From a virus: a stretch of DNA of 54,682 bases. How positions within the stretch are numbered: the stretch's first letter is position 1; each line of letters starts with the position of its first letter. Below the pieces are notes generated by a model that saw only the letters and a list, made by a program, of their open reading frames with translations, did no database searches and was not told the DNA's origin. Positions 2,753-52,154 of this stretch are shown in pieces. The position numbers and the translations under genes are program-made. The stretch lies in IMG/VR virus record IMGVR_UViG_3300029787_000061, positions 1 through 54,682 of that record, one strand, 5' to 3'.

Positions 2753-3839
2753 TATTTAACCTCCAATTATCAAAGTTCCATGTTTTCCATTGACCATACT
2801 CTTCATCCTCATCTAGATTACCTTTAATTATATCATAAAATTTTTGGTCAGGATTGAAGGGGAGTGATTTAGCATACTCCCAAAAAGGACTATCAAACTT
2901 TGATCCATACTGATAATGCCAAAGAATTATATTTTCAAGTTGTTTTACATTTGTTTTTATATTTTTATTACAATTATCAAATGTATCATTGGCGAACATT
3001 CCATCCCAAGCACATTTACACAATTTATGATACATTCCAACAGCTGTTGCTTCCATTGGTTCAATAAACCCATACATATTACCCTGTAGGATTGTCCTCT
3101 CTCCAATTCTGAAATTTTTTGCAACATAATTACTAAACTCAAGTGTATCTGTGACATAATCTAAATCAAATCTAGATGTAAAATCATCAATGGCATCTTG
3201 CTTTTTAGTTATAGTGTTGTTAAACAAATATCCATAGGATACACTATCTTGATTTGGAATAATAAATGTCCATCCATTAGGAGTTGCAACACATTTTGTG
3301 TAGATCAAATCATTATCTCTTTCAAATTTTTTAGATAATAGAACAGAATTTAGAGGATTAATTAATTCCTCATAATTATCTAAATCTCGATTATGTCTTC
3401 CTCTACAATCAAATATAACATTTGCATCTATTTCTTTTTCTGGGTTTTTAATTGTTTGTTCATATACATCAAAAAGACCAGATTGTATTACATTTTCAGA
3501 CAACTTTTTAGGTACGAAATGAATACCCATATCATGCCACAAAAAAGGATGGAAAATTTTATCCTGTTTTCTACCCCAATTTTCATATAAAATACCACTT
3601 TTAAATGTTGCACCAATAGGATTATTATACCAGTTTATATCTAGTGCATCAGCGATTAATTCTGGAACTGTCAAAGTAGTTCCCTGCCCTACTTTTTCAA
3701 TAGGATGATATTCTGGACTGTGGTAAATTTTTATTTCAAAATTTCCTAAGTCCCCACCATCTCTAAGATGTTTATAAAAGTGTAATGCAGTTATGCATCC
3801 CGCATTTCCAGCACCAATAATAGCAATTTTATACTTCAT
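2739..3839 (-). CDS. Flavin-dependent (tryptophan-type) halogenase
   Basis: This 366-residue flavoprotein has the hallmarks of flavin-dependent halogenases, which use FADH2, O2 and halide to make hypohalous acid. It has a FAD Rossmann motif GAGNAG (9-14); ATFKSGILYENW with K80 in the place of PrnA catalytic Lys79; WTFIIP (190-195) as a variant of the family WxWxIP signature; and EPMEATA with E263 in the place of PrnA Glu346. It is shorter than bacterial tryptophan halogenases (about 500-540 residues), so the substrate lid is probably reduced. A cyanophage halogenase (VirX1) has been characterised, so viral enzymes of this type are known. No flavin reductase is seen here; host FADH2 would be needed. 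The start overlaps the upstream oxygenase stop by 4 bp (ATGA). Substrate unknown. Confidence 0.87.
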   Translation of the reverse strand: MKYKIAIIGAGNAGCITALHFYKHLRDGGDLGNFEIKIYHSPEYHPIEKVGQGTTLTVPELIADALDINWYNNPIGATFKSGILYENWGRKQDKIFHPFLWHDMGIHFVPKKLSENVIQSGLFDVYEQTIKNPEKEIDANVIFDCRGRHNRDLDNYEELINPLNSVLLSKKFERDNDLIYTKCVATPNGWTFIIPNQDSVSYGYLFNNTITKKQDAIDDFTSRFDLDYVTDTLEFSNYVAKNFRIGERTILQGNMYGFIEPMEATAVGMYHKLCKCAWDGMFANDTFDNCNKNIKTNVKQLENIILWHYQYGSKFDSPFWEYAKSLPFNPDQKFYDIIKGNLDEDEEYGQWKTWNFDNWRLNNEFV

Positions 3840-48670: not shown

Positions 48671-49900
48671 TTAAAATAGAGATAAGGCGAATTGATCTTT
48701 GATGCTGTTATCCTTTTGAACTATAATCCTAGTTCCACCTTTAGATCTCACTCCTCCTTGTGATTGAGACTGACCACCCTTGTTTCCAACAATCATTACA
48801 GTATTTTTAGATTTTCTTTCTGGTGTAATTGTGGTCGTACTCACTGTTTTTTTGGATTTACTAATATTTAACCCATCACCAGTTTTTGCCACTGAACTAT
48901 TTACTGTAGAACCAGATGTTCCACCAGTTTTTGTCGAACTTTGAATTTTTTCAGATCCACCAGAAGTCCCTTCTACCTTTAGATTTGTAGTTTTTACATC
49001 ACCATTATTAGAATCTGCAGATCCTTCTGAACCACCACTAGAGGATCCATCTACTTTTAAAGAAGTTTCTTCTCCATCACTTTCTTTATTTGTGGTTGAT
49101 TGCACCTGTTCGGTTAGATTAGCATTTTCAGGTCCTACAATATCAACACCTGTCCCTGCCTTTTCAATTGTTTTTAATGTATCATTAAATTCTCCAGATT
49201 TTGATGCCATAGTTTTTTGAACATCACTGACACTTGATTTAAGTTCTTTATCCTTTAAATCTTTATCTGTCAATTCTCGATTGATTTCTTTTTTTAATTT
49301 TTTCTTCTTCAATCCAAGAAAACTTTTCACACCATCTAAAAGTTTATCCTTTATACCATTAAATGCATCTTTTAGTTTTCCAAATACTCCCTTAATTTTA
49401 TCTCCAATATCATTAAAATTTAAGTTTGATATCACATCAAAAGCTTTTCCAATTACCTTACCAATAGATTTAAAAAATCCAATCACACCATCAAAGAATG
49501 CTTTAAATTTATCTACAATATCACGAATTACTTTGATTACTTTTTTAATAAAATCAATAATCTGAGGTAATTTATTAAGTACAAATCCAACCAAAAGTAT
49601 TTGAATGAGTGACATTAATCTCTCTAATGGTCCTTTTCCAGAAGTTCCTTTTGTTTTTTGCTCCTCTCCCTTTTTTTGAGATTTTTCTTGTTCTAAAAGA
49701 GATTCCTTTCCCTGTCTTTTTTTCTTCTCTTCTCTATATTTTTGAAATCTTTCAGAGGTTGCTCTCAGTCTTTTCTTAATTTTAATATTTTTCTGTACAG
49801 ACTTTGTTAATCTCTTACTACTTTTAGCGACACCCTTCATTGCACCTGCAGACTTAGATGCTATTTTTGCTCCTATTTTTAAAACTGCTGATGCTGCCAT
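48671..49900 (-). CDS. Hydrophobic tail protein (tape-measure/hub-like)
   Basis: The 409-residue protein has a very basic N-terminus (KSSKRLTKSVQKNIKIKKRLRATSERFQKYREEKKKRQGK), then hydrophobic and amphipathic helices (LMSLIQILLVGFVLNKLPQIIDFIKKVIKVIRDIVDKFKAFFDGVIGFFKSIGKVIGKAF) and a Ser/Thr/Gly-rich C-terminus. This is the profile of tape-measure or central-hub proteins (T4 gp28/gp29 class). It follows the similarly built 452-residue gene by one base. Together they may replace gp29. No exact homologue is claimed. Confidence 0.5.
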   Translation of the reverse strand: MAASAVLKIGAKIASKSAGAMKGVAKSSKRLTKSVQKNIKIKKRLRATSERFQKYREEKKKRQGKESLLEQEKSQKKGEEQKTKGTSGKGPLERLMSLIQILLVGFVLNKLPQIIDFIKKVIKVIRDIVDKFKAFFDGVIGFFKSIGKVIGKAFDVISNLNFNDIGDKIKGVFGKLKDAFNGIKDKLLDGVKSFLGLKKKKLKKEINRELTDKDLKDKELKSSVSDVQKTMASKSGEFNDTLKTIEKAGTGVDIVGPENANLTEQVQSTTNKESDGEETSLKVDGSSSGGSEGSADSNNGDVKTTNLKVEGTSGGSEKIQSSTKTGGTSGSTVNSSVAKTGDGLNISKSKKTVSTTTITPERKSKNTVMIVGNKGGQSQSQGGVRSKGGTRIIVQKDNSIKDQFALSLF

Positions 49901-49901
49901 G

Positions 49902-51260
49902 TTATGCTAAAACGTTATATTGAGTTTTTGAATATAATGTAAAATTATTATCAGAATTTGATGCAGATATGTTTGGAACTGAAGATGCTAGATTTCCACT
50001 ACCAGAAGTTCCGACTGAACCACCACCCATATTTGTAGTTGCATCCACAATATTTGGAGGTGCTTCATTAAGTGTAGAAACACTCACTTTTTTATTAGGA
50101 TTAGAATTTATTTTAGGAGATTTCTTCACACCATCAATTTGTGATTCATACTTCTCTCTGATTTCTGCCTTTGCATCACCAATCACACCTGAATCTTGTA
50201 ATGCTTTAGATCCAGATCTACCACCACCTGACTCATCTCTTAATTTCTTTTCTGCAGATTCCATATCAGCTCTCATATTATCTCTTACACCTATTACTCT
50301 ATCTCTCTCTATAATATAATTTGCAACAATTTCTTTTTGTTCAGGTGTTCCTGCCTGTTCTACAGTCTTTTGTCCTCTTCCTCTCCTATTTGACTTCCCA
50401 ATATAAAACTTTTCATCTTTACCTGTACCTTTTACTGTAATACCAGCTTCTACTAAAGGACCTTTAAGATCATCAAATTTTTGTTTAAAATTTTCCCCAC
50501 CAGCAGCTTTAGTTGATGCAGCATCAACACCCTTTTTCATGGCAAACAGAGTACCAATACCCGCTGCCAGTCCAAGTGCGATCAATCCTGCTGGACTTGC
50601 CAGAAATCCCAGTATCGCACCACCAATGGAAATAACAGCACTTACTACACCAGATATAATGCCAGGTAATGCCAATAAACCACCATTTAAAGCGAGAAAT
50701 ATACCACCAACCACTGCGACTGACTTAATTATCGTATTTCTCATCTTTTTGAAGGTTTCAGTATCACCAGACATTTGTGCCTGAATCATTTTAATTCCCT
50801 TATTTACAATAAATCCACCAAAAAGTGCCATAAAAGCATCAGCTAATCTACCTAATACACCCTTAACAGTTTTACCAACTGCCTCTACAGGTTTAAGCAG
50901 AGTTTTACTTATTGATTTACCAACACCTTCTAAAAGTCCTTCTTTTTTCTTAGATTTATCTTTCTCATCTTTTAATATCTGTTTTCTTTGTGCTTCCCTC
51001 TGTATTGACTTTTCTCTCTCAGCGTCATTTACTAATATCTGAGAAACTCGATTAGTGTTTAATATAACAACATTTTTTAATAATACTATTTCTCTTGAGT
51101 TTTTTTGTATTTGCTTGGCAAGAGGATCTGATCCCTCTCTATTAAAAACTTTATTTGCATTTATTTTTCTTCTCTTTAAAATAGGGCTACCACCAACACC
51201 ACCACCTCGCATTGAAGACATCTTATTATTAAAATTTTCAAATGCTGGAGAATTATCCAT
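49902..51260 (-). CDS. Tape-measure-like tail protein
   Basis: The 452-residue protein begins with a coiled-coil and basic region (LAKQIQKNSREIVLLKNVV, EREKSIQREAQRKQILKDEKDKSKKKEG), has a long hydrophobic core (about 165-245: IIKSVAVVGGIFLALNGGLLALPGIISGVVSAVISIGGAILGFLASPAGLIALGLAAGIG) and ends helical and Ser/Asn-rich. Its start overlaps the 59-residue frameshift-linked ORF by 8 bp. In siphophages and many myophages the G/GT-type tail assembly chaperones stand directly before the tape measure, so position supports that role. Tape-measure function is inferred. Confidence 0.55.
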   Translation of the reverse strand: MDNSPAFENFNNKMSSMRGGGVGGSPILKRRKINANKVFNREGSDPLAKQIQKNSREIVLLKNVVILNTNRVSQILVNDAEREKSIQREAQRKQILKDEKDKSKKKEGLLEGVGKSISKTLLKPVEAVGKTVKGVLGRLADAFMALFGGFIVNKGIKMIQAQMSGDTETFKKMRNTIIKSVAVVGGIFLALNGGLLALPGIISGVVSAVISIGGAILGFLASPAGLIALGLAAGIGTLFAMKKGVDAASTKAAGGENFKQKFDDLKGPLVEAGITVKGTGKDEKFYIGKSNRRGRGQKTVEQAGTPEQKEIVANYIIERDRVIGVRDNMRADMESAEKKLRDESGGGRSGSKALQDSGVIGDAKAEIREKYESQIDGVKKSPKINSNPNKKVSVSTLNEAPPNIVDATTNMGGGSVGTSGSGNLASSVPNISASNSDNNFTLYSKTQYNVLA

Positions 51261-51432
51261 TACTTTGTTGTTTTTGTTTTAAATTTTCCTCTTCAATATA
51301 TTGTTCTAAAAGAGCAATATATACATCCTTTTCCCATGGTATCATGTTTTCAATCTCAGTTAATGAATATTTATGGTGCTGCATCAAGGCAAAGTTGATC
51401 TTATAGTATGACTCTAAACTTGCATGAGCCAT
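51253..51432 (-). CDS. 59-residue tail assembly chaperone-like ORF, reachable by -1 frameshift from gp26
   Basis: This ORF (MAHASLESYYKINFALMQHH... ending NLKQKQQSNG) begins two bases after the gp26 stop. Its frame is the -1 frame of gp26: after the slippery T TTT TTC at 51441-51447, a -1 slip reads CGA GTA GGT ATG straight into it. It could therefore be made alone from ATG 51432 or as the C-terminus of a gp26 fusion of about 300 residues. The sequence (SYYKINFALMQHHKYSLTEIENMIPWEKDVYIALLEQYIEEE) is helical. The lambda GT extension and similar T-domains are the nearest functional analogues; homology is not claimed. Confidence 0.75.
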   Translation of the reverse strand: MAHASLESYYKINFALMQHHKYSLTEIENMIPWEKDVYIALLEQYIEEENLKQKQQSNG

Positions 51433-51434
51433 AC

Positions 51435-52154
51435 CTACTCGAAAAAAGACGATAACCCTTCTAAGACAATATCACTTTTTACCTTTGTTTCTGGATTGGT
51501 CACTTTAACAGTATGAGACAATTTAGGCATGGTATCAAAGAAATTTTCAATTTCTTTAAATTGTTTTGAATTTAATTGATCTAAAAAATCAATCATCTCC
51601 TTTTTTGTACAATCCGCAGATGTCCAAGATTCTTCTTCATTGTATATTTGATCAATACATGAAATAATTAGATCAAATGACTCCTGAACTCCAATACCAC
51701 CAGTCAAATCAAAATTACTTTTTATAAATTCTGATAAAGAGGGATATTTCATTCTCAATATCAAATTATCGTCTAATTTAATATCTTTATTATGATCAGG
51801 ATGTTTTTGAATTTTTATTTCATCAAGTGGAATCATTACAGGAACTTGTGTTTTTTCATCATCAGGACATGTAATAAGAACTTCCACATTTTCACCAACA
51901 GATTTTCCTCTTATATTTAAAAAAAGATATTCAATATCAAAAGTAGATAATTTATCAACTTTGATACCTCTTGTTATTATACAATTATTAATTACAGATT
52001 TGATAGCGTTAGTTATCTGCTTCTGATCTTCAGATTCCATCGCAATAATCAGAATTTTCTCTTCTTTAACTAAAAATGGTCGATATTTTATTTTTCGATC
52101 AGAAGAAGGAAGAACCAACTCATATGTTGGTGTTGCAATTTTTGGTAATGGCAT
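51435..52154 (-). CDS. 26: Baseplate hub assembly protein gp26 (T4_baseplate, PF12322)
   Basis: The 239-residue protein matches the phage gp26 family: MPLPKIATPTYELVLPSSDRKIKYRPFLVKEEKILIIAMESEDQKQI in part, CIITRGIKVDKLSTFDIEYLFLNIRGKSVGE, and the MKYPSLSEFIKSN segment. gp26 takes part in assembling the central hub of the baseplate. The 3' end carries a T TTT TTC slippery heptamer just before the stop codon TAG, with a 59-residue ORF in the -1 frame. Two tandem late-type motifs lie upstream. Confidence 0.8.
   Translation of the reverse strand: MPLPKIATPTYELVLPSSDRKIKYRPFLVKEEKILIIAMESEDQKQITNAIKSVINNCIITRGIKVDKLSTFDIEYLFLNIRGKSVGENVEVLITCPDDEKTQVPVMIPLDEIKIQKHPDHNKDIKLDDNLILRMKYPSLSEFIKSNFDLTGGIGVQESFDLIISCIDQIYNEEESWTSADCTKKEMIDFLDQLNSKQFKEIENFFDTMPKLSHTVKVTNPETKVKSDIVLEGLSSFFE
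51441..51447 (-). other. Candidate programmed -1 frameshift site, T TTT TTC
   Basis: The gp26 reading frame ends TCT TTT TTC GAG TAG. The heptamer T TTT TTC fits X XXY YYZ in the zero frame, and slipping one base back joins the 59-residue ORF without a stop. No downstream pseudoknot was evaluated. Confidence 0.75.

Follow-up and report, generated by a model that had tools for sequence, protein, structure and literature searches.

The gp26/gp51 junction analysed here is very probably a site of programmed -1 ribosomal frameshifting, which would yield two tail assembly chaperones, a short gp26 and a long gp26-gp51 fusion. The junction lies on the minus strand of IMG/VR virus record IMGVR_UViG_3300029787_000061, and the whole record of 54,682 bases is referred to below as the window. 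At the level of sequence, the evidence consists of a slippery heptamer, its phase, an open -1 frame, the conservation of these elements, the covariation of a downstream stem-loop, and homology to gp26 and gp51 of T4. We infer the actual shift, its efficiency and the function of the products as chaperones, the last from the protein family, the position of the genes and the parallels with T4 and lambda. An earlier note on this DNA had proposed both the frameshift and a chaperone layout resembling lambda G/GT. This proposal is supported by the conserved heptamer, phase and ORF, by junctions in which gp51 has no ATG, by the covarying stem-loop, and by T4 gp51, which is a fused homologue. The features of the junction are as follows.

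51435 to 52154, minus strand: gp26 ORF of 239 amino acids (aa), the zero-frame product and putative short tail assembly chaperone TAC-N, recognized by PF12322, phrog_150 and homology to T4 gp26
51435 to 51437, minus strand: gp26 stop codon TAG, read from the sequence, which the proposed -1 shift would bypass
51441 to 51447, minus strand: slippery heptamer T_TTT_TTC in the zero-frame phase, beginning 10 nt ahead of the gp26 stop
51405 to 51435, minus strand: stem-loop, a probable frameshift stimulator, with a 10-bp stem GGUAUGGCUC / GAGUCAUACU and an 11-nt loop, 5 nt after the heptamer
51253 to 51441, minus strand: extension in the -1 frame (gp51/TAC-C), 62 codons after the slip plus a stop, recognized by its open frame and homology to the C-terminus of T4 gp51
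51253 to 51432, minus strand: ATG-initiated ORF of 59 aa as conventionally called, gp51 or "baseplate hub assembly catalyst" (phrog_634)
49902 to 51260, minus strand: next gene, 452 aa, overlapping the end of gp51 by 8 nt, a candidate tape measure protein judging by length variation in relatives and a hydrophobic segment

According to the proposed mechanism, most ribosomes would end at the TAG and release gp26 as the short chaperone TAC-N. Some would pause at the stem-loop about 5 nt downstream with tRNA-Phe paired on T_TTT_TTC, and the tRNAs would then re-pair one base back on TTT_TTT and enter the gp51 frame. The predicted product (TAC-NC) would join residues 1-238 of gp26 to 62 residues of the -1 frame, giving a fusion of 300 aa.

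The slippery heptamer and its conservation

The zero-frame product is a member of the gp26 family: PF12322 (T4_baseplate) matches it with an E-value of 7e-75 and 251.9 bits, the gathering cut-off being 24.5 bits, and a profile search with phrog_150 gave an E-value of 2e-82. The final codons of the ORF are TCT TTT TTC GAG TAG, in which the heptamer occupies the X_XXY_YYZ phase that -1 slippage requires. The window's 32 main ORFs comprise 17,144 codons, among which T_TTT_TTC occurs in frame only twice, and TTC accounts for only 16% of the Phe codons.

Relatives were collected from IMG/VR and from named phages, giving 197 distinct gp26/gp51 junctions. An in-phase T_TTT_TT(C/T) was detected no more than 31 nt from the gp26 stop in 194 of them (TTTTTTC in 177 and TTTTTTT in 17), and the stop itself may be TAG, TAA or TGA. 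The earlier note had read T TTT TTC as a slippery heptamer in the right phase and had named an alignment of the junction across T4-like phages as a check; in this alignment, the heptamer, its phase and the downstream ORF all proved to be conserved.

The degree of conservation differs sharply between neighboring positions. On a tree of 122 closer relatives, parsimony assigned zero changes to the seven columns of the heptamer, versus 26 and 27 changes to the nearby columns 9 and 10. The residue that precedes the two Phe residues varies across junctions (Ser in 112, Asp in 47, Ala in 18 and Asn in 13). Despite this variation its codon always ends in T, and the Phe codons are exactly TTT TTC or TTT TTT. 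Within the close clade, synonymous constraint is complete at both Phe codons, which are TTT TTC in all 74 distinct sequences, whereas the adjacent Leu and Gly codons vary freely.

The site was found in cyanophages and pelagiphages (S-PM2, P-SSM2, S-SKS1 and HTVC008M among the named phages) and also in KVP40, phiN3, Aeromonas phages PX29 and phiAS5, Stenotrophomonas phage YB07, Rhizobium/Sinorhizobium phages, Caulobacter phage Cr30 and Cronobacter phage S13. Considering the invariant phase of the heptamer, seen both in independent contigs and in cultured phages, a chance homopolymer or an assembly artefact was rejected as its origin. The junction pattern is real and far beyond chance.

A homopolymer of this kind might also act at the level of transcription, with the polymerase rather than the ribosome slipping on the run of six T residues and making the fused frame. 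Runs of polyT or polyA can cause such slippage, and the T run at these junctions is six to eight bases long. However, six bases are short for efficient slippage, and ribosomal frameshifting better accounts for the preserved phase (X_XXY_YYZ), for the C that ends 177 of the 194 heptamers and for the adjacent stem-loop. We regard a transcriptional origin as extremely improbable.

The -1 frame and the start of gp51

One base back, the junction reads CGA GTA GGT ATG GCT CAT, encoding R-V-G-M-A-H-A-S-L-E-S..., and remains open until the stop at 51253. In 190 of the 197 distinct junctions, the -1 frame is likewise open into a gp51-like TAC-C of 45 aa or more. The observation in the earlier note that this frame runs without a stop into a 59-residue ORF thus extends to the relatives. 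The note was also right to treat this ORF as an extension of gp26 but left it unnamed; it is gp51, matching phrog_634 with an E-value of 4e-29. In addition, the ORF matches positions 240-278 of the 282 positions of phrog_150 (E-value = 3e-6), which lie past the end of the window's gp26. Because the C-terminal end of this profile matches the ORF, it is suggested that phrog_150 was probably built in part from fused proteins.

Seven junctions fall outside the 190. A contig end truncates four of them (L024, L027, L165 and L218), one (L071) is an in-frame fusion, and the remaining two (L090 and L095) are exceptions, described below. In L071 (contig IMGVR_UViG_3300049043_000112, around position 3213), the heptamer differs from that of the close relative L041 by a 2-nt deletion, TTTTTTC becoming TTTTT, which places gp26 and gp51 in one frame and is the sole gap between the two sequences in that coding region. 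This deletion is either a real allele or an assembly error. L090 and L095, together with L264, L265 and L266, are Vibrio and Ackermannviridae-type gp26 relatives that lack an X_XXY_YYZ heptamer. Their -1 frame still enters a gp51-like peptide of 58-68 aa, and all five loci have in common a T_TTY NNN TAA sequence, which is perhaps the site of a slip by a single tRNA.

In the public records inspected, gp26 and gp51 are annotated as two independent genes. According to such a view, only separate proteins would be made, the gp51 ATG being coupled to the gp26 stop and the polyT being incidental. The window's clade has an ATG a few bases past the stop, a layout which would suit stop-start coupling. 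However, an incidental polyT would not stay invariant in both phase and codon choice. Moreover, in the 14 codons that follow the slip, 66 of the 190 junctions lack an ATG and 62 lack ATG, GTG and TTG alike, although these counts depend on relatedness and do not represent independent events. The peptide after the slip is conserved even in the junctions without an ATG (ALSHDSLEN and similar); in these lineages, a free gp51 that includes this part would lack a plausible start. Where a gp51 ATG exists, no clear Shine-Dalgarno motif precedes it: the Shine-Dalgarno-like run is never longer than 4 nt, compared with often 5-8 nt at gp26 starts. Taken with these observations, production of separate proteins only appears very improbable. 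The 66 junctions without an ATG led us to reject stop-start coupling as the sole route.

Some pelagiphage annotations of gp51 in public records (L260, 1353-1490; L084, 3262-3396) begin 3' of the junction and miss the conserved N-terminal peptide of the -1 frame.

A further possibility, which would add to the frameshift and is compatible with it, is that both routes operate: gp26-gp51 would be made by frameshifting, and the ATG of the cyanophage clade would also give some free gp51. Of 74 close relatives, 68 retain this ATG at the same position, and its distance from the stop suits coupling. On the other hand, the column of this ATG is part of the stem described below, and its Met aligns with Leu in the clades without an ATG, so that the codon may persist as a hydrophobic residue and a base-paired codon. 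We regard the additional route as rather unlikely.

A candidate stimulatory stem-loop

A second peak of synonymous constraint, located 10-13 codons after the slip (CTT GNG TCA TAC), coincides with the 3' arm of the stem. In most close relatives the stem is GUAUGGCNCA / UGNGUCAUAC, and its 5' arm begins some 5 nt past the heptamer; it mostly comprises 8-12 bp with a loop of 9-11 nt. Pairing holds in 91.8% of the cells across 70 distinct sequences, a value exceeding all 500 shuffles in a control that ignores kinship among the 70 sequences, whereas slid registers of the stem gave 23-47% pairing in every case. The fold z-score was -2.65 for the window and ranged from -4.1 to -5.2 in three relatives.

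Covariation is confined to one pair of the stem, which is UA in 28, GC in 26 and AU in 12 of the 70 sequences. It joins the wobble position of an Ala codon to the middle base of a Glu/Ala/Val codon, and the two bases change together in 38 of the 70 rows. When mapped onto the 122-sequence tree, the 21 and 16 changes of the single columns collapse to 24 changes of the pair. Because some rows have other hairpins, the RNAalifold consensus comprised only three pairs for the close clade and zero for the wider set; counts over the named stem were used instead. The hairpin of the window's clade is not universal, being different or weaker in several clades. In the wider set another register, GCCUCU/AGAGGC, is common though far from universal (65% of cells).

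Judging by these sequence patterns, the stem-loop probably stimulates the frameshift. A more specific proposal, whose chances we consider evenly balanced, is that it is an undescribed strong stimulator. According to this proposal, the stem-loop, up to 12 bp long and starting within gp51 coding sequence roughly 5 nt past the heptamer, has its pairing maintained by substitutions that alter the amino acid (E/A/V) and match the wobble base of the upstream Ala codon, and other T4-like clades have replaced it with different hairpins.

Lambda tail assembly chaperones and their proposed counterparts in T4 and marine phages

Lambda G/GT follows the same scheme, in which a -1 frameshift generates a short and a long chaperone. 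The lambda slippery sequence is GGGAAAG, which differs from TTTTTTC. The lambda products are also smaller than members of the gp26 family, which have about 240 aa and are annotated as baseplate hub proteins; the comparison between the two systems concerns their layout. By analogy with lambda gpG/gpGT, the tape measure protein would be coated by many copies of TAC-N and few of TAC-NC, with tail tube subunits recruited through the C-terminal domain of TAC-NC.

Comparison with T4 points to the same pair of proteins in another arrangement. T4 gp26 is homologous to the TAC-N profile (hhalign E-value = 3e-18) and has the same FF ending. T4 gp51 is homologous to TAC-N (E-value = 2e-6) and, at its C-terminus, to TAC-C (E-value = 1e-4), and is thus a stand-alone protein with both domains. 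Similarly, the gene 51 product of Aeromonas phage 31 aligns to the gp26-gp51 fusion in one piece; a stand-alone long form that shares its N-terminus with the short form is therefore found in both phages. In T4, the heptamer is gone from the end of gene 26 (GAG TTC TTT GAG TTA CTA TAA), and this gene lies apart from gene 51 and in divergent orientation. These features suggest that T4 carries the two chaperone forms as separate genes, 26 and 51. It has been reported that cyanophage and marine vibriophage versions of gp51 lack the first ~200 residues (Sullivan et al. 2010, PMC3037559). The absence of these N-terminal residues of T4 gp51 from the cyanophage protein would be explained by the frameshift, which lets gp26 supply them.

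The earlier note described the next gene as tape-measure-like. Its length, the variable length of its counterparts (related downstream ORFs in other loci encode 470-648 aa) and the hydrophobic segment of the 452-aa protein agree with this description, but family matches are weak: Pfam-type and phrog profile searches gave no match above threshold. It is plausible, from these sequence features, that this gene encodes the tape measure. In Cr30 and HTVC008M, the annotated tape measure comes after one further small ORF. Within 48671-51260 of the window, the 452-aa gene and a 409-aa gene that follow gp51 resemble tandem relatives; matches of the 409-aa protein include the first downstream ORF of several other loci as well. 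The tape measure may be either gene or both.

An AlphaFold2 model of the natural fusion in L071, based on an alignment of 28 rows, had a mean pLDDT of 81. It combines alpha and beta elements in its N-terminal part and is helical in its C-terminal part; confidence is low for residues 239-258, just past the junction. Among viral predicted structures, its best matches include many baseplate hub proteins of the gp26/gp51 type. In a fold search, no PDB structure matched the model significantly; among the insignificant matches, the HK97 tail chaperone 2ob9 (E-value = 4.3, rmsd 2.6 A over 62 columns) shows a likeness to the model that is suggestive only. Sequence searches of NCBIfam and PDB also gave no matches.

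The earlier note had been unaware of any description of a gp26 frameshift. However, tail assembly chaperones of T4-like phages are reportedly already treated by Vladimirov, Gautam and Davidson (Virology 2022;566:9-15), who are said to have described putative TAC genes across these phages, with frameshifting apparently conserved in several T4-like groups and T4 using separate genes 26 and 51. Frameshifting in T4-like tail chaperones is thus already known in kind. In passages that cite this study, PMC10274946 refers to T4-like phages in which frameshifting is replaced by a pair of genes, one short and the other long and fused, and PMC12846349 to polyT frameshift signals in "TAC-N genes of T4-like phages". 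In Vandenendeviridae and Andersonviridae, the TACs likewise shift by -1 near the 3' end of TAC-N, where the polyT motif is GTTTTT (PMC12846349); both the phage families and the motif differ from those of the window, and the likeness lies in the polyT shift site. No description of a covarying gp26/gp51 stem-loop was found in the literature searched, in which the work of Vladimirov et al. was represented by the papers that cite it. Both the stem-loop and the covariation within it may be new.

Under the frameshift reading, two proteins of marine T4-like phages, gp26 ("baseplate hub subunit") and gp51 ("baseplate hub assembly catalyst"), would become one frameshifted pair of chaperones, and the covarying stem-loop would provide a clean, testable candidate stimulator in phages of cyanobacteria.
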